Shown here: positions 5,359 to 21,667 of the stretch, in pieces | Position numbering within the stretch: the first letter of the stretch is position 1 | Layout: each line of letters starts with the position of its first letter | DNA from: Verrucomicrobiales bacterium | GTDB lineage: Bacteria > Verrucomicrobiota > Verrucomicrobiia > Verrucomicrobiales > Verrucomicrobiaceae | Direction of reading: 5' to 3' | DNA: 34,510 nucleotides | NCBI GenBank assembly: GCA_020439875.1 | Contig: JAGRPD010000358.1 | Coordinates: 1 to 34,510 of the forward strand | Program-made: the position numbers and the translations under genes | Notes under the pieces: model-generated | Told to the model about the DNA's origin: nothing | Database searches by the model: none | Seen by the model: only the letters and a program-made list of their open reading frames with translations

Positions 5359-6165
5359 TCAGGTGCCCGTGCCCATGGGGAAAAATTGCGTCAACAGCAG
5401 GGTCAAAAAGTAATTTACAATCAGCAGCGTCAACGAGGCATACACCACAGCGCGCGTGGTTCCCAAGCCGACGCCCACCGCGCCATCCGTCGTCTCCAGA
5501 CCCTGGTGGCAGGAGATGAGCACGATGATGATGCCGAAAAAGAAGCCTTTGATCATGCCAAATGCCACATCTTCCAGGTTGGTGTGCTCCACGACGTGAC
5601 CCCAAAACCACGCGTGAGGGATGCCAAACCCCACTACCGAGACCAACCACGATGCCGCGAGGCCGAAGACGATCGACTCCGCGATGAGCAGCGGCATGGA
5701 AACCATCATCGCGATGAACCGCGGCATCACCAGATAATCGACGGGATGCACCCCCATGGCTCGCAGCGCATCGATCTGCTCTGACACCTTCATCGTGCCG
5801 ATCTCGGCGGCCATCGCCGCACCGACCCGACCCGTCACCATCAGCCCCGCCAGCACCGGACTCAGCTCCCGGCACAGCGCCACGCTGACGATGCCGCCAA
5901 TGGTCGATTCGATGCCGAAATCCTTGAATTTAAAATAGGTCTGCGCGGTGAACACAGCTCCCGTGAAGGCCCCCGTCACCACCACCACCGTCTGCGAGCC
6001 GTAACCGATCCGCACGATCTGCTCAAACATCAGGAGTACCCGCGGACGCCCTCTGAACAGCGCCCCCAGCATCTCACTCAGCAGCATGCCCAGACTGCCG
6101 AGATACCCCACAAGGTCGAGGAAAGACCGACCGAGGAGCTGCAAGGGACCACGTTTCATTGCCAT
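5359..6165 (-). CDS. mlaE: MlaE-type ABC transporter permease
   Basis: This integral inner-membrane permease works with MlaF and MlaD. From ATG 6165 it has 268 residues, the usual MlaE length. The frame continues to 6351, but that extension is polar, low-complexity and runs back over the start of the divergent sulfatase, so it is discarded; ATG 6159 is another candidate. The N-terminal amphipathic helix (LGRSFLDLVGYLG) is followed by about five membrane segments and the conserved cytoplasmic coupling segment GTMKVSEQIDALRAMGV, which is diagnostic of the family. No Shine-Dalgarno is seen. It is the promoter-proximal gene of mlaE-mlaF-mlaD. The promoter should lie in 6166-6274, shared divergently with the sulfatase gene, but no convincing -35/-10 pair was found there. 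Confidence 0.93.
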   Translation of the reverse strand: MAMKRGPLQLLGRSFLDLVGYLGSLGMLLSEMLGALFRGRPRVLLMFEQIVRIGYGSQTVVVVTGAFTGAVFTAQTYFKFKDFGIESTIGGIVSVALCRELSPVLAGLMVTGRVGAAMAAEIGTMKVSEQIDALRAMGVHPVDYLVMPRFIAMMVSMPLLIAESIVFGLAASWLVSVVGFGIPHAWFWGHVVEHTNLEDVAFGMIKGFFFGIIIVLISCHQGLETTDGAVGVGLGTTRAVVYASLTLLIVNYFLTLLLTQFFPMGTGT

Positions 6166-6274
6166 GCGAAGGCGGCACTTTGCCACCACACCTGCTGCCA
6201 TGCAACCGAGTGGTCGCTGTGTCTCGCCGTCTGCATCCGATGCAAGCCCACCTCCTCCCTCACGTTTCTGCCGA

Positions 6275-7834
6275 ATGCTTCGTTCCCTCTTGGCTTCGCT
6301 CCTCGTCTCCGCTGCTGCCGTCGCTGCAGACCGCCCGAACATCGTCTTCATCTTCTGCGACGATCTCGGTACTCAAGCCATCAGCGCCTACGGCAGTCCC
6401 TTGAAACTCTTGGACACGCCCAACATGGATCGGCTAGCGCAGCACGGCATGCTGTTCCAGCGCTGCCTTGTTCCCAACTCCATTTGCGGCCCCAGCCGCG
6501 CCGTCATCCAAACTGGCAAATACAGCCACATCAACGGCTTCATCGACAATCGCAGCCGCTTCAATGGGGACCAGCCGACGATGCCCAAAATGCTCCATGA
6601 CGCGGGCTATCAGACCGCTGTCATTGGCAAATGGCACCTCGTCTCCGACCCGCAGGGCTACGATCACTGGCACATCCTGCCCGGTCAGGGTGCCTACTAC
6701 AACCCGCCCATGATCCGCGATGGTGAGTCCGTCAAACATGAAGGTTACACCACGGATCTGATCGGAGATTTCTCCGTGGACTGGATCAAGCAGCGGGACA
6801 AATCCCGCCCCTTCCTCCTCATGTCTCAGCACAAAGCCCCTCACCGCGACTGGCAACCACCAGCCCGCCTGCTCGGCTGGAATCAAGACCGCGTCTTTCC
6901 TGAACCCGCCACCCTTTTCGACGACTACTACGGCCGCGGACGCGCGGAGAAAGAGCAGGACATGACTCTGGCGAAAACCTTCACCACGCGCGACGCCAAA
7001 CTCGCCGAACCCAAAGGCCTGACTCCCGACCAGCTCGCCGCCTGGAATGCGTACTACGGCCCCCGCAACGCGGCCTTTGAAAAAGCCAACCTCAGCGGGG
7101 AAGACCTCGTGCGCTGGCGCTACCAACGCTACATGCATGATTACCTCGCCTGCGTCAAAGCCGTGGATGAAAACATCGGCAAGGTGCTGGATTGCCTGGA
7201 AGAAGAAGGCATCGCTGAAGACACGCTCGTCGTGCTCTCCTCCGACCAGGGCTTCTACCTCGGCGAGCACGGCTGGTTCGACAAACGCTGGATTTATGAG
7301 GAAAGCCTCACCACTCCTCTCATCGTCAGCTGGCCCGGTGTCACCGCTCCTGGCAGTCGTTGCGATGCCATGGTCTCCATCATTGATATCCCCGAGACCT
7401 TCCTCCAAGCCGCTCACCTGCCCATCCCCGCCGACATGCAAGGACGCTCTCTCCTCCCTCTGCTGAGAGGAAAGACGCCCGCCGACTGGCGCAAGAGCTT
7501 CTATTATCACTACTACGAGTACCCCGGTGCCCACTCCGTCCGGCGGCACTACGGCGTCGTTACGGATCGGTACAAGCTCTTCTATTTTTATGAGCCCGAC
7601 ATGGACTACTGGGAGCTGATCGATCGCGAGACCGATCCCGATGAAATGACCAACGTCTATGCGGATCCCGCCAAAGCCAAGGTCGTGAAAGAATTGCACG
7701 CCGAACTCGATCGCCTGCGCAAGGAATTGAAAGTCCCCGCCAAAGATCCCGAACCTCCAGCTCGCACACCCGCCCCGGGCAAAGGCAAGGGCAAGGCGCG
7801 CCCCAAGGCCAGAGCAGGCAAAGCTCAGTCCTAG
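6275..7834 (+). CDS. Secreted type I sulfatase (CxPSR)
   Basis: This 519-residue formylglycine-dependent sulfatase hydrolyses a sulfate ester, probably on a polysaccharide, in the periplasm or outside the cell. ATG 6275 gives a clean signal peptide (hydrophobic core LLASLLVSAAAV, cleavage near Ala18) directly before the sulfatase start RPNIVFIFCDDLG. The maturation motif is CGPSR (71-75), with Cys71 converted to formylglycine. Other landmarks are GKWHL, the metal/substrate strand VVLSSDQGFYLGEHGWFDKR, and the C-terminal YKLFYFYEPDMDYWELIDRE. These resemble the iduronate-2-sulfatase or S1_11-like group, but substrate cannot be assigned. An odd tail of Pro, Lys and Gly (from about residue 490) follows the catalytic domain. 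The frame extends upstream to 6086, which would overlap mlaE and lacks a signal peptide, so that start is rejected. Confidence 0.93.
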   Translation: MLRSLLASLLVSAAAVAADRPNIVFIFCDDLGTQAISAYGSPLKLLDTPNMDRLAQHGMLFQRCLVPNSICGPSRAVIQTGKYSHINGFIDNRSRFNGDQPTMPKMLHDAGYQTAVIGKWHLVSDPQGYDHWHILPGQGAYYNPPMIRDGESVKHEGYTTDLIGDFSVDWIKQRDKSRPFLLMSQHKAPHRDWQPPARLLGWNQDRVFPEPATLFDDYYGRGRAEKEQDMTLAKTFTTRDAKLAEPKGLTPDQLAAWNAYYGPRNAAFEKANLSGEDLVRWRYQRYMHDYLACVKAVDENIGKVLDCLEEEGIAEDTLVVLSSDQGFYLGEHGWFDKRWIYEESLTTPLIVSWPGVTAPGSRCDAMVSIIDIPETFLQAAHLPIPADMQGRSLLPLLRGKTPADWRKSFYYHYYEYPGAHSVRRHYGVVTDRYKLFYFYEPDMDYWELIDRETDPDEMTNVYADPAKAKVVKELHAELDRLRKELKVPAKDPEPPARTPAPGKGKGKARPKARAGKAQS

Positions 7835-11648: not shown

Positions 11649-13349
11649 ATGCGCCCTATTTTTCCTTCAGCCCGACTCGCCGCGATCGCCTTCACGGCTT
11701 GGCTTGGCGTCGCCCAATTGTCCGCCCAGGTTGGTGATGTCAGGTCTGACCCCGGCTATTTTCCAACCCTCCAAGACAGCCTCACGCTGAGCGGGCCTTG
11801 GGGAGCGGATCCCGATTATCCGAGGAGTTCGGGGGGGGTATTGAATGGTCCCGACCTCACAACAATTGGCGCGACCAGTGATTTCTGGGCTTACGAGACT
11901 CAGCCGACGCCGCTCAATTGGTTGCAGCGTAATCTCCAGCCGATCGATTACGTACTTCGACCTTTCACCCGTGGTCAGGGCTTCAACTTCTTCCAAAACA
12001 CGACTGGTTTTTCATCGGTTGATGTTTCTGGGAATTTCCCCTTTCTCACGCGAAGTTACGACAAGTCGAGGTCCCACCTTGCATACCTCACTCGCGCTTA
12101 CCCAGGGATCTCAAAGTGGTCGCCGTTGTTTTTCGACGTGATGAACATATCGGCTCTTGCTGCTTATGGGCACGGCTCGCGTCAGTTTGACGTGGGAGAT
12201 GGCTTCATCGCTGGAGTATCGCCGACGATTCGTGGTGGGTTCAGATTGACGGATCGCACAGCCTTTTTGGTCGATATGCGACTCTACTTTATATATGACG
12301 AGGACACAGGCGCGGACGGTGGATTCGGTTTTTACATGACATCGGGTCAGCCTGCAGCCTTTGCGACAATTCTCCACCAGTTTGAAATTGGGCAATGGGA
12401 TATTTCACTTTTTGACTTCGTTGGTGCAGTTTCCGGATGGGATCTTTTCCGCAATCAAACCTACGATGGTGCCTTCGCGCAGACGGTAGGAGCGAGCATT
12501 GGAATTCATGAATTTGATTACAGCCGAGGAGATTGGTTTGATTCAAAAAGGGCTTGGCTATACAATCAGGCAGGAATTCGAGCTGCAGTTTTTCCAACTC
12601 GTTATTCTCGATTCCAGGCTGGGATGACGCGCCGCGACTCGTGGTCGTTTGACGGTTTTGATCACACGAAAGGTAGCGAGATCTGGCAAGCTGCCCTCAC
12701 TTATGACGACAATGGATGGCCCATCGCGCCTTCGTTAACATGGTCATCTTTCAGTCAGGATCTTTCGTTCTATCAGCACATGGCGATGCTTACGGCGACT
12801 ATGCCGCTTGATTTTACTAAAGGATGGTTATTGCTGCGTAATCTGACTTTTTCAGGAGGAATAGGATATACATTCGGAGAAAATGGAGATCAACTACTCT
12901 GGAATTTAAGCGCAAATTGGAAAGTCACATCAAGACTGTTAGCTAGACTGCATTACGCCCAAGGTTATTTCTCGCCAGACGTCGGTAGTGACTGGCTCGG
13001 AACTAACTTGGGCGGTAGTCTAGTCTGGTCTCCTTCGAAACGAGCCCGACTGGGATATCATGTTGGTTGGGCCAAAACGGATAACGAAGATACGCGGTTT
13101 TTTGGAGAGGGCTTGTTTGCCACTTATGATTTAGGCAACTACTCCCAGATCTACGGCAGTATAGGTCACCAGCAGGTGAGTCAGATTTTTGATCAAACAA
13201 CAATCCTTTACCAAATTGAACTGCGATCAAGGCTGGCAACACGTTTGCAGGGCTCTCTCGGCTATCGCAATGTGGACGTTAGTAACAATGGAACCGTGGC
13301 TGATGGTGACTGGGGGACTTTCTATCTCCAGCTAGTTCGCACTTTTTAA
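11649..13349 (+). CDS. Outer-membrane beta-barrel protein of the polysaccharide locus
   Basis: The 566-residue protein has a signal peptide (RLAAIAFTAWLGVAQLSA, cleavage near residue 26) and then a region dominated by alternating hydrophobic strands rich in Tyr, Trp, Phe and Gly, ending in a C-terminal Phe (LQLVRTF), the usual signal for BAM-dependent barrel insertion. Strand pairs such as WLLLRNLTFSGGIGYTF and LLARLHYAQGYF recur to the end, suggesting a large barrel of perhaps 16-18 strands after an N-terminal plug-like section (about 27-110). No TonB box or FecR partner is seen. Gene content downstream suggests a porin partner for the OPX export protein. Codon use is far less GC-rich than the flanks. 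A related possibility is the BBP2-type porins of exopolysaccharide loci. Exact family not recognised. Confidence 0.8.
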   Translation: MRPIFPSARLAAIAFTAWLGVAQLSAQVGDVRSDPGYFPTLQDSLTLSGPWGADPDYPRSSGGVLNGPDLTTIGATSDFWAYETQPTPLNWLQRNLQPIDYVLRPFTRGQGFNFFQNTTGFSSVDVSGNFPFLTRSYDKSRSHLAYLTRAYPGISKWSPLFFDVMNISALAAYGHGSRQFDVGDGFIAGVSPTIRGGFRLTDRTAFLVDMRLYFIYDEDTGADGGFGFYMTSGQPAAFATILHQFEIGQWDISLFDFVGAVSGWDLFRNQTYDGAFAQTVGASIGIHEFDYSRGDWFDSKRAWLYNQAGIRAAVFPTRYSRFQAGMTRRDSWSFDGFDHTKGSEIWQAALTYDDNGWPIAPSLTWSSFSQDLSFYQHMAMLTATMPLDFTKGWLLLRNLTFSGGIGYTFGENGDQLLWNLSANWKVTSRLLARLHYAQGYFSPDVGSDWLGTNLGGSLVWSPSKRARLGYHVGWAKTDNEDTRFFGEGLFATYDLGNYSQIYGSIGHQQVSQIFDQTTILYQIELRSRLATRLQGSLGYRNVDVSNNGTVADGDWGTFYLQLVRTF

Positions 13350-13427
13350 TTTGATTCTGTTATTTTACTCCGCACTCCTCCATTCGGATTAAAACAGCAA
13401 AAGCCTCCCTCTCAACCCATACAAACA

Positions 13428-14321
13428 ATGAAAACCAAGACTTCCTCACGGCCCCTTGTTAGGACCTTCTTTAGTGGAATACTCCGATCCAAAGCCTTGA
13501 TGGCTATCACCCTGGCGGGAATGCCTTATGGGGCTGATTCGGTGAATGCTCAAGATGAACATTTAAGCGCCACTGCTGGCTTGCCTCGTGGCAACGAGAC
13601 CCAGATGGATGTAGCGGGTGATGTCAGTAAATACTTTGGACAGCGTCAAAACCTTTACCGAGACCCCAACCGGAAACTGGCCAAGATCGATGTTGATGGC
13701 GACTTCAATTACGATGGCACCATCAATAACTTCGATCCTGCCGACAACGGGGCATTCCAGCAAACCCCTCCTGGACTGGTGGTTGGCGTCGGTGAATTGA
13801 CTCGCGTCGTCGTCCGACTGACACCCTATAAAATCGATTATGAGGGTCGGGCGAAGGTTCGTCTTGAGGTTACTGGGATTAATCGTGACGCAAAATCCGG
13901 AGAGTTTGATAGCGATGAAGAGCGACGCAACGGGATGGGTCATATCATTGTGTGGGACACCAACCGGGAAACCAAACTCATCGACACTCGTGATCCCGAG
14001 CGCCTGAGCTACGAGTGGACCATTGACGATCGAGTTTACCCCTACAACCTGCAGATTGTTCCACGGGCCATTTATGTGGAGGGTGTTTCGCCTTCTCCCC
14101 GGTACCAGGGCGACATCCGCCTGCTGATGTCGGTGACCGATGAGAACCCCAATTACTTGGTGGATCCCAAGGCCAATCCGGTGCGTGTGGCCCGCTTCTT
14201 CCGTCCAACCTACGACCACATTTTGCTCACTGTGACTCCGACTCCACAGGAGAAGCGCTATATCAACGCTAACGCTGAAAAAGTGTGGAGTCGCAAGGGT
14301 GACACAATGACGGATAAGTGA
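13428..14321 (+). CDS. Secreted protein with one EF-hand/dockerin-like calcium loop, unknown function
   Basis: This 297-residue product has a long N-region, a hydrophobic core (about 22-35) and likely cleavage after VNAQ (residue 42). Residues 92-103 (DFNYDGTINNFD) fit a complete EF-hand loop: Asp1, Asn3, Asp5, Gly6, Ile8 and Asp12, with a further DVDGD just before. The rest looks like a beta-sandwich: VVVRLTPYKIDYEGRAKV, then IIVWDTN, then AIYVEGVSPSPRYQGDIRL. From memory this resembles the module that precedes repeat domains in large verrucomicrobial surface proteins, here standing alone. It lies 78 bp after the barrel gene and is followed by a strong terminator, so the two probably form one transcript. 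A calcium-dependent matrix or cell-surface role is plausible but unproven. Confidence 0.75.
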   Translation: MKTKTSSRPLVRTFFSGILRSKALMAITLAGMPYGADSVNAQDEHLSATAGLPRGNETQMDVAGDVSKYFGQRQNLYRDPNRKLAKIDVDGDFNYDGTINNFDPADNGAFQQTPPGLVVGVGELTRVVVRLTPYKIDYEGRAKVRLEVTGINRDAKSGEFDSDEERRNGMGHIIVWDTNRETKLIDTRDPERLSYEWTIDDRVYPYNLQIVPRAIYVEGVSPSPRYQGDIRLLMSVTDENPNYLVDPKANPVRVARFFRPTYDHILLTVTPTPQEKRYINANAEKVWSRKGDTMTDK

Positions 14322-14377
14322 TTGGGGAGATCTTGACGAAGAGGGACCACGCCAACCAACGTTTTCAGTGCCGTTTT

Positions 14378-14421
14378 GGCTCCCGCCCTGGTTTTCTTTC
14401 TGGGGTGGGAGCCTTGCTTTT
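14378..14421 (+). terminator. Strong intrinsic terminator after the EF-hand protein gene
   Basis: An 11-bp stem (GGCTCCCGCCC at 14378-14388 with GGGTGGGAGCC at 14403-14413, one G-U pair) encloses a 14-base loop and is followed by TTGCTTTT. It lies 57 bases after the stop of the EF-hand gene and before the OPX gene, so it should separate the barrel/EF-hand transcript from the assembly operon. Confidence 0.72.
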
Positions 14422-14480
14422 GAGAGGTATTCAGTTATTTCTTGCGAGTCAATCAACAATCAATCGAATCTAAAAAGTGC

Positions 14481-15191
14481 ATGTCTGAATCTGGGCAAAG
14501 TGCGATGCAATTTGAAATTAGAACGAGATCCTTCCGCAGTGGCCGGATCCTTTTAGGCGGGTTTGCGGGCTTATTGGCGAGTTGTGCTAGTGAGCTGCCG
14601 ACACCTACCAATGTGCCTCCACCTCTTCGGCCCGTTGGTCTCGAGGTCAAAGAGGACCGCACAGTAAAAGTGGGCGAGACACTCGAAATCTTCGTCATGG
14701 AAGACCCGGAGTTTTCAGGAATGCACATTGTCCGTGAACGCGGTGACATCATTCTGCCCAAGTTGGGTCGCATTGATGTTGCAGGATTGACCGTGGAAGG
14801 CGTGCAGAATCAGATCAAGCGTCTGCTCGAAGTTTCCCAACTCAAAGAAGCGACGGTGATTGTGGACAGGGTCGGCGCGAAACCTGTGACCAATTTCACT
14901 GAAATGCCCAAGATGTTGGTGTATGTCGTTGGTGGCGTCATGCGCCCTGGACAACACATGCTTGCGGTAAAGTCGGGCGTTCCCATCTATGCTTATGAAG
15001 CTATTTTGATTGCAGGAGGACTGAGTGATTTTGCGATCGATCGGGGAGCCTATGTGTTGCGACGTTCCACGGGTGGAAAACGCACCAAGATACCGCTCGA
15101 TCTGAAGGCACTCCGCAACGGTGAGGGAACGGATATTGAATTGGGGGAAGGGGATATGGTTTTTGTTCCTGAACGGCGGTTCGCATTTTAG
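14481..15191 (+). CDS. Short OPX (Wza-family) polysaccharide export lipoprotein
   Basis: This 236-residue outer-membrane-associated lipoprotein is part of a capsule or exopolysaccharide exit channel. A clear lipobox LASC places the acylated Cys at residue 35. A PES (poly_export) domain follows (about 50-125: VKVGETLEIFVMEDPEFSG, RERGDIILPKLGRIDVAGLT), then one SLBB domain (about 137-225: YVVGGVMRPGQH, then GGLSDFAIDRGAYVLRR). The protein ends at VFVPERRFAF right after the SLBB domain, so the C-terminal membrane-spanning helix of E. coli Wza is missing. The start is uncertain: ATG 14481 is used, ATG 14505 would give a shorter n-region, and TTG 14442 is also open. No Shine-Dalgarno is seen. A new promoter must lie between the terminator (to 14421) and this gene. 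First gene of the assembly operon. Confidence 0.92.
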   Translation: MSESGQSAMQFEIRTRSFRSGRILLGGFAGLLASCASELPTPTNVPPPLRPVGLEVKEDRTVKVGETLEIFVMEDPEFSGMHIVRERGDIILPKLGRIDVAGLTVEGVQNQIKRLLEVSQLKEATVIVDRVGAKPVTNFTEMPKMLVYVVGGVMRPGQHMLAVKSGVPIYAYEAILIAGGLSDFAIDRGAYVLRRSTGGKRTKIPLDLKALRNGEGTDIELGEGDMVFVPERRFAF

Positions 15192-15413: not shown

Positions 15414-15504
15414 GCTTACAGCATCGGGGTTGGCACTCGGCACATGCAGCCCCTTTACGAGCGCCTTTTGCGGCTGGTTCAACTCCCGTGGAATCACCTC
15501 AACA

Positions 15505-17022
15505 ATGCTCAAAACCCATGCAATAAGCCGTCGAGTATTGCGGACTTTAGGCGGTGCCCTATTTGACGCACTCGCCGTTGTTTTCGTTTACGTGCTCGCC
15601 ATGATGGTTCGGTTTGGCGAACCATGGAATGGCATGGTCACTCGGTATTGGCCAGCGGTTTTGGTGGGGGCGATCGCTGCTCCTAGCGTGTTTTATGTTG
15701 GAGGAATGTATGGCGGTATTGGTCAGAAGACTCAAGGTGATTGGGTTTGGAGATTGCGTTTGATCTTGTCTAGCTTGGTGGTCACGACGGCAGTGATTTT
15801 GACGATTGGGTCACTGGATTTCTCCTCTCGAGTCGGTCGCGGAGTGCTTGGCCTCGCAACGCTGCTACTGGCGATTGTTTGGCTGTCGAGGCACCTTTAT
15901 TGGTCGGCCCGAAAGAGGGAAAAGACTCCGACTAGTGCGGTGTGTTTGGTTTCTTCCAGTAAAGATGAACAAGCTGCTACCTTAATGGCCCGGCAAATGG
16001 CGGGAGTGATCGTGAGGGGCGTATTGGGCGTCAATGGTTATCAGCCTTGCGGTGACTTAAAATCTCTAGGCGATGTCGGCAGTTTTGATGACCGGGAAGA
16101 GACCGGTACGCCTGATCTGATCTTGGTGAGGGAAAACCATCTGGTGGACCCTAATCTCACAGCACTTTTGAGGCGATGGCGTTTTGCGGGGGTGGAGATC
16201 GCTGCCTTGGCGGATGTGTATGAAAATGCGTTCCAAGCAGTACCGCTGGGGCTGGTCTCGGAAAGCTGGTTGTTCCGAGCGACGAGCCAGACGGGAATTG
16301 GGTACGTTCGTAAGGTTAAAAGACTCTATGATCTGGCAGTCGCCACGATTCTTCTTCTCGTGCTGGGACCATTGGCGCTCTTGGCTTTGGGATTGGTGAA
16401 AATTTTTTCACCCGGTCCGGCTCTGTTTCGCCAGGTGCGCCTGGGGCGACTGGGGCGGGAATTTGAGGTGTTGAAAATCCGCACGATGCATTTGAATGCG
16501 GAGGAGGAAGGACCGATGTGGTCGGCGGGGAAAAACGACGCAAGGTGCTATCCGTTGGGCAATTGGCTGCGGAAGTTCCGGATTGATGAGATTCCTCAGT
16601 TGATCAATATCCTCAAGGGAGAAATGTCCTTCGTGGGGCCAAGACCGGAACGTCCTGAGTTTTTTGACATGCTGGAAGCCGAGATCCCGCACTATCGAGA
16701 AAGGCTTTTGATGCAGCCCGGTCTCACTGGTTGGGCTCAGGTGAGTTATCCCTACGGCAGTTCGGTTGATGATGCGTGGCGGAAGCACGAATATGATCTC
16801 TACTACTTCAAGCACATGAGTTTGCTTTTGGATTGTGTGGTGCTGGTGCGGACCGTGCGGACGATTCTGTCTGGGGGAGTGCGAGAACCGGAATTGGTTT
16901 CCGAAGCGATGAGTGATTGGCGAAGGATGGCACGGGAAAACATGCAAGAGCGCCGTAGCAGGGTGGAAGCGGTCTCTTCCACAACCGGTGGCCAAGTGGA
17001 GCGGATTTCCAAAGCGGTTTGA
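15505..17022 (+). CDS. Polyprenyl-phosphate sugar-1-phosphate transferase (WbaP/EpsB-like initiating enzyme)
   Basis: This 505-residue inner-membrane enzyme starts a repeat unit by moving a sugar-1-phosphate from a nucleotide sugar to undecaprenyl phosphate. It has the full-length architecture: four or five N-terminal membrane helices (to about residue 135), a soluble CoA-binding-like middle (about 145-265), one re-entrant/membrane helix (RLYDLAVATILLLVLGPLAL), then the PHPT catalytic domain with FRQVRLGRLGREFEVLKIRTM, RKFRIDEIPQLINILKG, MSFVGPRPERPEF and QPGLTGWAQVSYPYG. The last stretch closely resembles the transferases linked to exosortase-type exopolysaccharide loci, though no exosortase is visible here. 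ATG 15505 is chosen over a TTG at 15430. The methyltransferase gene begins 10 bp downstream. Sugar specificity cannot be read. Confidence 0.94.
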   Translation: MLKTHAISRRVLRTLGGALFDALAVVFVYVLAMMVRFGEPWNGMVTRYWPAVLVGAIAAPSVFYVGGMYGGIGQKTQGDWVWRLRLILSSLVVTTAVILTIGSLDFSSRVGRGVLGLATLLLAIVWLSRHLYWSARKREKTPTSAVCLVSSSKDEQAATLMARQMAGVIVRGVLGVNGYQPCGDLKSLGDVGSFDDREETGTPDLILVRENHLVDPNLTALLRRWRFAGVEIAALADVYENAFQAVPLGLVSESWLFRATSQTGIGYVRKVKRLYDLAVATILLLVLGPLALLALGLVKIFSPGPALFRQVRLGRLGREFEVLKIRTMHLNAEEEGPMWSAGKNDARCYPLGNWLRKFRIDEIPQLINILKGEMSFVGPRPERPEFFDMLEAEIPHYRERLLMQPGLTGWAQVSYPYGSSVDDAWRKHEYDLYYFKHMSLLLDCVVLVRTVRTILSGGVREPELVSEAMSDWRRMARENMQERRSRVEAVSSTTGGQVERISKAV

Positions 17023-17032
17023 AGAATAGGCT

Positions 17033-17755
17033 ATGGAAGACGCAGAGTTTGATCACCACGCGCAACGTTACGATGAGGAGTTGGCCCAGGGACTGAGACT
17101 CACGGGCGAGGGGAAGGAGTTCTTTGCGGAGGGTCGAGTGACATGGATGAGACGACGTTGGTTGAAGGCACCATGGACAGCAAATTCGATTCTGGACTTT
17201 GGCTGCGGAACGGGCGGAAGTTGCGACCCGCTTGGGCGAGAGTTTGGAGGTTCCTACGTTGGGGTGGATCCCTCAATGGCGTCTTTGGAAGAGGCTCGCC
17301 GCCTCTACAACGGATCAGGGGCGACTTTTTTCACGGAATCCGGGAAGGTGGAGGATTCCACGATGGATCTAGCGTTCACCAATGGGGTTTTTCATCATAT
17401 CCCTCCGGATCAGCGAGCGGCTTGTCTTCGAGAAATCTGGCGAACCTTGACGCCGGGTGGCAGGTTTGCGTTCTGGGAGAACAATCGATGGAATCCCATC
17501 GTGCATTGGGTGATGGCACGGGTGCCATTTGACGCGGATGCTCAAATGTTGTTTCCGTTTCAGGCGCGGGCCATGCTCCGCGAGGCGGGCTTTGAGATTG
17601 AAGGCACGGATTTTGCGTTTGTGTTTCCTGCGGCACTCAAAGGGTTGCGCTGGTTGGAGCCGCTGCTTGCGAAACTGCCATTTGGTGGGCAGTACTTGGT
17701 GATAGCGCGGAAGCCGAAAGGAACCGCGAATTGCGATCAAAATGGAAACTGCTGA
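17033..17755 (+). CDS. Class I SAM-dependent methyltransferase
   Basis: The 240-residue cytoplasmic protein has the SAM-binding motif I LDFGCGTGG (54-62), motif II acidic residue in VGVDPSMAS (Asp79), and a motif IV-like region LAFTNGVFHHI. The fold is Methyltransf_11/25-like. It has no membrane segment apart from a mildly hydrophobic C-terminus. Placed 10 bp after the initiating sugar transferase and overlapping the GT2 gene by 14 bp, it probably methylates a sugar, or a lipid-linked intermediate, of the same glycan. An alternative is modification of the polyprenyl carrier. The leader GAAGAATAGGCT is weakly purine-rich. Confidence 0.9.
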   Translation: MEDAEFDHHAQRYDEELAQGLRLTGEGKEFFAEGRVTWMRRRWLKAPWTANSILDFGCGTGGSCDPLGREFGGSYVGVDPSMASLEEARRLYNGSGATFFTESGKVEDSTMDLAFTNGVFHHIPPDQRAACLREIWRTLTPGGRFAFWENNRWNPIVHWVMARVPFDADAQMLFPFQARAMLREAGFEIEGTDFAFVFPAALKGLRWLEPLLAKLPFGGQYLVIARKPKGTANCDQNGNC

Positions 17756-18911
17756 ACAAGAGACATCCCTGGACCTTACGTTTGTCTTTCCTTGTCTCAA
17801 CGAGGAGGAAACGTTGGCGGAATGCGTTCGGCAAGTGAAGGCGTCGCTGGATCAGTCTGGGGCAAGCTATGAGGTGATTGTAGCAGACAATGGCAGCACG
17901 GATCGATCTCGTGAGATTGCTGAAGAACTGGGATGTCGAGTGGTTCCGGTGGCGAGGCGGGGATACGGTGCGGCGTTGAATGCGGGCATCAAAGCAGCTC
18001 GAGGTCGGCTCGTAATGTTTGCGGATTCGGACATGACCTACCTTTATGAGGATGCCAACGATCTTTATCGAGCGGCGGTAAAAGACGAGGCGGACATGGC
18101 GATTGCTTCGCGAATGATCGGGAAGATCGAACCGGGAGCGATGCCGCCATTGCACCGCTACATTGGCACTCCCGTTTTGACCTGGCTGATCAACCGATTG
18201 TATGGAGGGAAGCTGACGGACTGCAATTCGGGCTTTCGGTGCGTGCGCCAGGAAGGCTATCTGAATTGGGAGGTGCGTTCGTCGGGGATGGAGTTTGCAT
18301 CAGAGTTGTTGATCAAGGCGCTCAAGTCGGGTGCGCGGACCGTGGAGATCCCGTCGGGTTTGCGCAAGGGACCGGAGCATCGCGTGGCGCATTTGAGAAC
18401 ATGGCGAGACGGAATGAGGCATTTGCTTTTCATTCTTTCGGAGAAGCCCTCGTTGTTTGAATGGTTGGGGCTTGTCTTGGCGGTGCCGACTTCGTTGCTG
18501 CAAGTCCTGGCCGTTTTGGTCGGGCCGATTTCGGTCGGGCCGTTTAGCATTTTTGATCTGCACACTCAGGCGCTGCTGCTTCTGGTGTCGATCTTCGGCA
18601 TTCAATGTTACCTGCTGGGATGCAGCTTGTACCTTCGTGAAGGGGACGCGCCTCTGCCGATCACTCGCCGTTTGATTCATATGGACGAGGGCAGCCTGTT
18701 CTTTTTGCTGCTAGGAGTTTTGCTGGGCGCGGGGGTGTTGGCGGCGATGTTGGTCATCGCGTGGGCAAAGGCAGGATTCAGTGGGCTGCATCACACCAAT
18801 CAGCTTCTTGCTGCGGTGCATCTTCTGGGAGGGGGAGGGATGATGGCGGCGGGTTTGTTGTCCGTTCACATGCTGAAGCGGCGTTCCAATTGGGAGGTTG
18901 GTGGGCCGTGA
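17742..18911 (+). CDS. Membrane glycosyltransferase family 2 (DPM1/GtrB-like)
   Basis: The 389-residue protein has an N-terminal GT-A domain, VFPCLNEEETLAECV, with the nucleotide-binding ADNGSTD (48-54), the metal-binding DSD (95-97) within VMFADSDMTYLY, and the acceptor motif DCNSGFRCVRQEGY typical of dolichol/undecaprenyl-phosphate sugar transferases. The C-terminal part (from about 236) has four membrane helices. It likely moves a hexose to undecaprenyl phosphate for use by a membrane transferase, or adds a sugar to the lipid-linked unit. It overlaps the methyltransferase by 14 bp, and its stop overlaps the GTG of the next gene (GTGA), showing tight translational coupling. Family certain, donor unknown. 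Confidence 0.93.
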   Translation: METAEQETSLDLTFVFPCLNEEETLAECVRQVKASLDQSGASYEVIVADNGSTDRSREIAEELGCRVVPVARRGYGAALNAGIKAARGRLVMFADSDMTYLYEDANDLYRAAVKDEADMAIASRMIGKIEPGAMPPLHRYIGTPVLTWLINRLYGGKLTDCNSGFRCVRQEGYLNWEVRSSGMEFASELLIKALKSGARTVEIPSGLRKGPEHRVAHLRTWRDGMRHLLFILSEKPSLFEWLGLVLAVPTSLLQVLAVLVGPISVGPFSIFDLHTQALLLLVSIFGIQCYLLGCSLYLREGDAPLPITRRLIHMDEGSLFFLLLGVLLGAGVLAAMLVIAWAKAGFSGLHHTNQLLAAVHLLGGGGMMAAGLLSVHMLKRRSNWEVGGP

Positions 18912-20110: not shown

Positions 20111-21667
20111 ATGAAACGTTTTCTCTTTTTGCTCTGCTTGATGGCGGTGTCGGCTCGTGCGGCGCAGGACCGACCCAACATTCTTTTCATCATCGCGGAT
20201 GATGCCTCCCGGGACAGCATGGGGGCGTATGGCAGCACCTATGTGAGCACGCCGAATTTTGATCGAATCGCCAATGAGGGAGTGCGGTTTGAGCAGGCGT
20301 ACAATTGCAATCCGAAGTGCGCGCCGGCGCGGGCGTGTCTGCTGACGGGGCGTTACTCCTGGCAGTTGGAAGAGGCCTGCAATCACAATCCGATCCTGTC
20401 CTCGAAGTGGCGTTTTTATCCGTATCTGCTGGAGGACGCGGGATACTTCATTGGCCTGACGGGCAAAGGCTGGGGTCCGGGAGACTTCGACAGTGCGACG
20501 ATGGGGAAAAACGGGGGAACTCATGCCGTCAATCCTGCGGGTTACGCGTGGGATTCCCACAAGCTGAAGCCGCCCTACTCAGGAATCGCGAGCACGGATT
20601 ACGCGGCCAATTTTGCGGAGTTTCTGGATGCACGACCCGGAGACAAGCCCTTCTGCTTTTGGTTGGGAACCAAGGAGCCCCATCGGGCCTACGAGTTGGA
20701 TAGCCACAAGAAAGAGAACCGGGATCTCTCCAAGGTCACGGTGCCTGCGTACTACCCGGACAATGAAACGATCCGGGGAGATCTGGCGGATTACGCGATC
20801 GAGGTGGAGTGGTATGACCGCCACATCGGTGGTGCGCTGAAGGCTCTGGAGGAGCGCGGGCTGTTGGAGGACACGCTGATCATTGCGACGTCGGATCACG
20901 GCATGCCGTTTCCGCGCGTGAAGGGGCAGATTTATGATGATGGCTTCCACATTCCCTTTGCGGTGCGATGGGGTGCCCGGGTGAAAGGGGGACGTGTGGT
21001 GACGGATTTTGTGACTTTCCCGGATCTGGCACCGACGCTGTTGGAGGTGGCGGGCGTGGCGAAGCATCCGCAAATGACGGGCAAAAGCTTCCTGCCACAG
21101 CTGCTTGCGGAGGGATCTGGCAGGATCGATCCTGAGCGGAATCACACGCTGCTGGGCAAGGAGCGGCATGACATTGGGCGGACGGATGGGGAGGACCTCT
21201 CGGTGGCGTATCCGGTGCGGGCTCTGCGCAATGATGCGTTCCTCTACGTGCGGAATTTCAAACCGAAGCGCTGGCCGGTGGGAGATCCTCAATACGATTA
21301 TTTGAACTGCGATGCTTCGCCGACGAAGTCCTATTTGACGGGGCTTTCGATGGGAGATGGAGACTACAAGTACTACGAGATGGCGTTTGGTCTGCGGCCG
21401 GGAGAGGAGCTTTACGACATCGACGCGGATCCCGATTGCGTGAAAAATCTGGCGGACGATCCCAACCACGCGGGGACGAAAGCGGAGATGTGGCAGCAGT
21501 TGGAGCGTGAATTAGAGTTGCAAGGGGATCCTCGCGTGCTGGGTGGAGGCGACATTTTCGATGCCTATCCGAATCATCAAGTGGAGCGTCAACAGAAGCT
21601 GTATGGCCGCCCTGACTGGAATCCGGTGACGGAGTTCGAGAAGAAATACGGGAAGAAAGGACAGTGA
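20111..21667 (+). CDS. Secreted sulfatase, sulfamidase/heparan N-sulfatase-like (CxPAR)
   Basis: The 518-residue protein has a signal peptide (MKRFLFLLCLMAVSARAA, cleavage near residue 18), the N-terminal RPNILFIIADDASRDSMGA, and the maturation motif CAPAR (70-74) with Cys70 as formylglycine precursor. The following segment and the TGKGWGPGDF strand are characteristic of the N-sulfoglucosamine sulfohydrolase-like group (S1_8). The second metal strand IIATSDHGMPFPRVKG and a C-terminal ELYDIDADPDCVKNL are present. It probably removes sulfate from a glycan. It lies 48 bp after the zinc-peptidase gene on the same strand and ends 1 bp before convergent rsuA, so it closes the polysaccharide operon. 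A 5-bp hairpin (TGCAG/CTGCA) follows the peptidase stop. Exact substrate not determinable. Confidence 0.92.
   Translation: MKRFLFLLCLMAVSARAAQDRPNILFIIADDASRDSMGAYGSTYVSTPNFDRIANEGVRFEQAYNCNPKCAPARACLLTGRYSWQLEEACNHNPILSSKWRFYPYLLEDAGYFIGLTGKGWGPGDFDSATMGKNGGTHAVNPAGYAWDSHKLKPPYSGIASTDYAANFAEFLDARPGDKPFCFWLGTKEPHRAYELDSHKKENRDLSKVTVPAYYPDNETIRGDLADYAIEVEWYDRHIGGALKALEERGLLEDTLIIATSDHGMPFPRVKGQIYDDGFHIPFAVRWGARVKGGRVVTDFVTFPDLAPTLLEVAGVAKHPQMTGKSFLPQLLAEGSGRIDPERNHTLLGKERHDIGRTDGEDLSVAYPVRALRNDAFLYVRNFKPKRWPVGDPQYDYLNCDASPTKSYLTGLSMGDGDYKYYEMAFGLRPGEELYDIDADPDCVKNLADDPNHAGTKAEMWQQLERELELQGDPRVLGGGDIFDAYPNHQVERQQKLYGRPDWNPVTEFEKKYGKKGQ

Follow-up and report, generated by a model that had tools for sequence, protein, structure and literature searches.

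Split exits for secreted polysaccharide

An outer-membrane exit for polysaccharide that is divided between an outer-membrane polysaccharide export (OPX) protein and a separate barrel was published in 2022 for EpsX/EpsY (= WzpX/WzaX) and VpsM/VpsN, with 453 such pairs in 10 phyla (PMC9601211; Schwabe et al. 2022). EpsX and EpsY of Myxococcus xanthus stabilise each other and co-purify (PMC9601211), and WzpX is required for export of exopolysaccharide (PMC9603273). As we read these two papers, they leave open how the truncated OPX ring of the published systems connects to a monomeric barrel. The main text of PMC9601211 names no Verrucomicrobia, though the PVC superphylum is included in its tree figure. 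Here we describe a locus of this kind from a draft genome of Verrucomicrobiota (a Verrucomicrobiales bacterium; 5.3 Mb, 700 contigs). The window, meaning the whole stretch of DNA analysed, is 34,510 nucleotides long (GCA_020439875.1, contig JAGRPD010000358.1, forward strand), and positions 11649-15191 are filled by three plus-strand genes that encode, in this order, a 566-residue candidate outer-membrane barrel, a 297-residue secreted protein, hereafter the middle protein, and a 249-residue OPX lipoprotein.

The first-pass annotation of this DNA had proposed a split between a short OPX and a dedicated barrel, and had thought it notable for lying outside the myxobacteria. The split itself is strongly supported, both by domain content and by the way the two genes occur together and side by side in 56 related genomes, but the novelty does not survive, since the published pairs already include VpsN/VpsM of Vibrio (PMC9601211). 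With so many pairs in print, the two-part exit here is an ordinary new case of the published kind, and the conserved third gene looks to be the new element.

Like EpsX/EpsY (PMC9601211, PMC9603273), the locus has a short D1+D2 lipoprotein OPX that is gene-linked to a large candidate outer-membrane barrel, and an initiating sugar-phosphate transferase in the cluster; it differs in its extra conserved middle gene and in having its co-polymerase gene elsewhere in the genome, away from the cluster. The comparison is one of architecture, not of sequence relation between the barrel and EpsX. VpsM/VpsN of Vibrio cholerae, compared by description rather than by sequence, likewise couples a short OPX with a barrel (PMC9601211), while the parts of the Vibrio description consulted include no middle protein. 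Among curated families, the best match for barrel and OPX is the TIGR03016/TIGR03027 pair of XrtA/PEP-CTERM exopolysaccharide loci, and the genome has two exosortase (EpsH) genes off the window's contig (C21:8475-9323 and C231:3871-4650), as would suit a surface system of the PEP-CTERM type. Both proteins nevertheless fall far under the curated cut-offs (15.2 versus 90.85 bits for the barrel, 66.5 versus 180 bits for the OPX), and we rejected the XrtA/PEP-CTERM export pair as their identity on that ground.

Domain content of the OPX and the candidate barrel

The OPX gene (14442-15191, +) yields 249 residues when read from a TTG; translation likely begins instead at one of the in-frame ATGs at 14481 and 14505. 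A lipobox (LASC) places the lipoprotein cysteine at residue 48, and this Cys is nearly invariant among relatives. Poly_export (PF02563) matches residues 70-141 with 46 bits against a cut-off of 28, and is found in all 28 of the OPX relatives; the SLBB_2 match to residues 159-242 (E 3e-5, 24.5 bits) lies just below its cut-off of 27. Just seven residues remain beyond SLBB, as expected from the earlier claim that the protein ends there with no membrane-spanning part, and the domain search returned no Wza_C, no GfcC and no further domain. Wza of E. coli, a Class 1 OPX, shares Poly_export, SLBB and the lipobox; the window OPX differs from it in having neither D3 nor the C-terminal alpha-helical pore domain, its alignment covering Wza residues ~104-235 (D1 and D2) only, while Wza extends to 359. 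The best solved relative, 9n9a (186 residues), stops at the same point as the OPX, whose alignments to 9n9a and Wza end at residue 244-246. Class 3 OPX proteins are up to 280 residues long with SLBB only; the present one is within that length and has no C-terminal alpha-helix, judged from sequence and not from a fold. By its sequence, then, it is a Class 3 or D1D2-type OPX as published (PMC9603273, PMC9601211).

The OPX C-terminus directly after SLBB (15165-15188) is strongly conserved, reading VPEKVFGF or VPERRFAF among relatives, and might be a docking tail.

Two genes upstream, within the five-gene distance used to define a composite translocon, lies the candidate barrel gene (11649-13349, +). 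The open reading frame begins with a signal peptide (read by eye), followed by an N-terminal module of ~110 residues with a YFPT motif at residues 37-40. AlphaFold2 places about 18-20 strands in residues 160-565, where a composite translocon calls for a closed barrel of 16-18 or more; the predicted local distance difference test score (pLDDT) is mostly 70-86 in this strand half and averages 60 over the protein, a model too poor for a closed barrel to be claimed. A Foldseek search of the PDB with this model gave 399 matches at E<=0.001. Outer-membrane barrels and ushers make up nearly all of the 50 best listed, and their TM-scores are low. The protein ends in ...LVRTF, with Phe566 invariant in 25 relatives, and 12 of 25 relatives weakly match TIGR03016, an outer-membrane family of the PEP-CTERM system. 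The first-pass annotation had singled out a large protein with a C-terminal Phe at this place, and the fold matches support its reading as an outer-membrane barrel, with strand number and closure unsettled by the predicted model.

Co-occurrence and gene order

A first DNA-pattern scan using the barrel recovered no relative because the barrel family evolves too fast, so profile searches were required. We searched 143 related genomes with the OPX, the middle protein and a profile of the barrel (thresholds of >=97 bits for the OPX type and >=80 bits for the barrel). Each of the three was found in 56 genomes, and their co-occurrence is near perfect: 55 genomes have both barrel and OPX, 54 have the middle protein along with the barrel, and 54 have it along with the OPX. 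Fisher p-values are ~1e-34 or lower, and since they ignore the ancestry shared among genomes, we put the weight on the counts.

The barrel has a single strong place in each genome that carries it. In 52 of the 56 its gene lies on the same strand as the OPX gene and <=2.5 kb upstream of it; of the other four, two run into contig ends and two are 6-7 kb away. Five further, weaker barrel relatives sit 100-460 bp from other OPX genes. The survey that had been suggested as a check thus bears out the linkage, and this adjacency, together with that of the weak relatives, excludes the outcome in which homologues are consistently found away from OPX genes. The family is single-copy in the window's genome. 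The three-gene set is conserved, in the order barrel-middle-OPX in 40 complete loci and middle-barrel-OPX in six, and the arrangement recurs across four or more families of this order. Presence and absence of the genes are patchy yet joint, also within one genus (g8). Named relatives from a genome-wide scan for the locus are all labelled Verrucomicrobiota or subgroups thereof (Verrucomicrobiales, Verrucomicrobiaceae, Prosthecobacter, Verrucomicrobium and similar; one record Akkermansia).

The middle protein and its loop

The first-pass annotation had treated the protein encoded between the two export genes as incidental; it is instead the most conserved of the three, and alone among them looks undescribed. 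The middle protein is 61-62% identical to its closest relatives, the OPX 47-50% and the barrel 33-36%. Across families the middle protein stays at about 45-70% identity; barrel sequences are down to 20-25%. The gene (13428-14321, +) encodes a secreted, probably periplasmic protein, predicted by AlphaFold2 to form an immunoglobulin-like (Ig-like) beta-sandwich (mean pLDDT 77.6, core >90) with generic fold matches only. It matched no Pfam or NCBIfam family, sequences in the PDB returned beta-lactoglobulin noise only, and no published description was found in the literature searched. In a phylum-wide even draw of 388 genomes, convincing matches came from the same order alone. As a component of the exit, this protein, outside present Pfam and NCBIfam models and common to Verrucomicrobium, Prosthecobacter and many uncultured relatives, would gain a family.

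Ahead of the sandwich, an N-terminal segment holds a YFGQR motif and a 12-residue loop, DFNYDGTINNFD (13701-13736, +; residues 92-103), that fits the EF-hand/dockerin pattern DxNxDGxIxxxD. The calcium-loop protein reported earlier between the barrel and OPX genes is thus real in its motif: every one of the 48 homologues linked to barrel and OPX genes has D1, D5 and G6, a conservation far beyond chance, while G6 is lost in four of the five unlinked homologues. EF-hand and dockerin Pfam models are unmatched by the protein, and because the loop lacks a flanking pair of helices in the predicted model we call it EF-hand-like rather than an EF-hand.

The stand-alone homologues away from OPX genes (L120, L122, L123, L127) have lost the loop glycine, and one of them also the position-5 Asp, hinting at another role or at no cation.

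A proposed translocon and its alternatives

We think it likely that the locus encodes a composite outer-membrane translocon for exopolysaccharide, and we are confident in the two-part exit formed by OPX and barrel. The OPX would form a periplasmic ring of D1+D2 lipoproteins that takes polymer from a Wzc-type co-polymerase, encoded on another contig (C670). The polymer would leave through the 566-residue barrel, since the OPX itself lacks any membrane-crossing part. By analogy with EpsX/EpsY, barrel and OPX may bind and stabilise each other, with polymer passing through the barrel. A third, conserved protein whose gene lies between theirs would make a natural coupling piece, and the middle protein may join or gate barrel and OPX in the periplasm; that it is a physical part of the exit is plausible, although we would not quite give it an even chance. 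A bound cation may stabilise its N-terminal segment and perhaps be required for coupling. More tentatively, the middle protein could be a core part of a three-subunit translocon in Verrucomicrobiales, linking the truncated OPX to the barrel, perhaps at the barrel's N-terminal module, with export that depends on a cation. N-terminal segments of barrel and middle protein are both present in 34 loci and both absent in 13, with one discordant and one truncated, a pairing that would fit contact between the two proteins. As a significant signal this linkage was rejected: on the tree it amounts to 4-5 changes and 2 to 5 independent pairs, and is not significant.

Several observations weigh against the proposal. 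The barrel model is too weak overall to show closure, a search of solved structures with the barrel sequence gave no significant match, and AlgE, a polysaccharide porin, ranks only 47 in the fold search. The co-occurrence counts are not independent of ancestry, and tree-aware pairs of N-terminal segments are too few for that linkage to be tested. The middle gene is on a separate contig in five genomes where barrel and OPX genes are still together, and it was not found in two genomes that keep both. In its model a strand precedes the loop and the two flanking helices of an EF-hand are missing, which leaves calcium binding as a guess based on the motif. In the window's genome no Wzy polymerase was assigned.

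These points leave room for other readings of each component. The barrel could be a Wzi-like surface anchor or lectin that retains exported polymer, with the polymer crossing the membrane elsewhere; Wzi-type barrels do often lie near OPX genes, 40 Class 3 cases included (Saidi et al., PMC9603273, Table 1). Against this, the barrel family has no member that matches a Wzi Pfam model, this OPX type is tracked by one barrel per genome, and the OPX itself lacks a pore domain, so that some barrel is needed; we regard the anchor as improbable. Still less can be said for mere co-inheritance of barrel and OPX genes with no shared function. Every locus does come from one bacterial order, but presence and absence are jointly patchy even inside genus g8, the genes stay together in two different orders, and barrel sequences have diverged to the low identities given above, all of which makes it most improbable.

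The alternatives for the middle protein keep more of their weight. It might act on periplasmic polymer, in chain length or modification, or aid barrel assembly, with no bridging. Its inferred periplasmic location, its linkage to Wzc in many loci and its conservation across the whole order all speak for this, and the lack of a recognisable catalytic fold or family excludes it weakly; we hold it rather unlikely. It might also be secreted cargo, for instance a matrix protein that binds calcium, or one that binds polymer, produced alongside the polysaccharide. Ig-like and cohesin-like folds and dockerin-like loops are common in surface and matrix proteins, the five genomes with the gene on another contig suit such a role, and OPX/barrel pairs exist in other lineages with no middle protein. 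Yet its identity across families is high for a surface protein, it has a single domain and similar length throughout, and its gene sits between both export genes in 40 loci; cargo therefore seems unlikely.

Gene neighbourhood and further observations

The three genes precede genes for a polyprenyl glycosylphosphotransferase that initiates repeat-unit assembly (15430-17022, +; TIGR03025, 310 bits, above cut-off) and, from family searches, an S-adenosylmethionine-dependent methyltransferase (17033-17755, +) and a family 2 glycosyltransferase carrying membrane segments at its C-terminus (17742-18911, +), from which we take the setting to be exopolysaccharide synthesis. The same order of these three genes recurs in loci L090, L092 and L093. 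A search of the genome with Wzz (PF02706) gave no co-polymerase, while Wzc from a related locus, used as query, found an orthologue (61% identity) on C670, unlinked to the window and next to a MurJ-family flippase gene; in many relatives the Wzc-type co-polymerase gene adjoins the OPX gene. The parts of a Wzx/Wzy-dependent pathway located are thus the initiating transferase in the window and the Wzc orthologue and flippase on C670.

Between the middle and OPX genes lies a G+C-rich hairpin of 14 pairs (14378-14413, +; shuffle z-score -4.8), followed by a weak T run. It is single-copy in the genome, strong folding of the same gap is common, not universal, among relatives, and it may attenuate or protect the transcript. 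A membrane-anchored protein of ~380 residues with an Exo_endo_phos fold is encoded beside the export genes or their Wzc gene at roughly half of the examined loci: at L178:6294-7445 in the window's own genome (C670) and at 32 further places, L118:4397-5560 among them. Contig C501 of this genome (L028:7623-11904) carries a second short OPX (192 residues) next to Wzc and a 421-residue BBP2_2/OMP beta-barrel protein, so that the genome seems to hold a further pair of OPX and barrel, in which the barrel is a different one and the middle protein is absent. Sulfatase-like genes lie on either side of the export cluster, at window positions 6086-7834 and 20111-21667.

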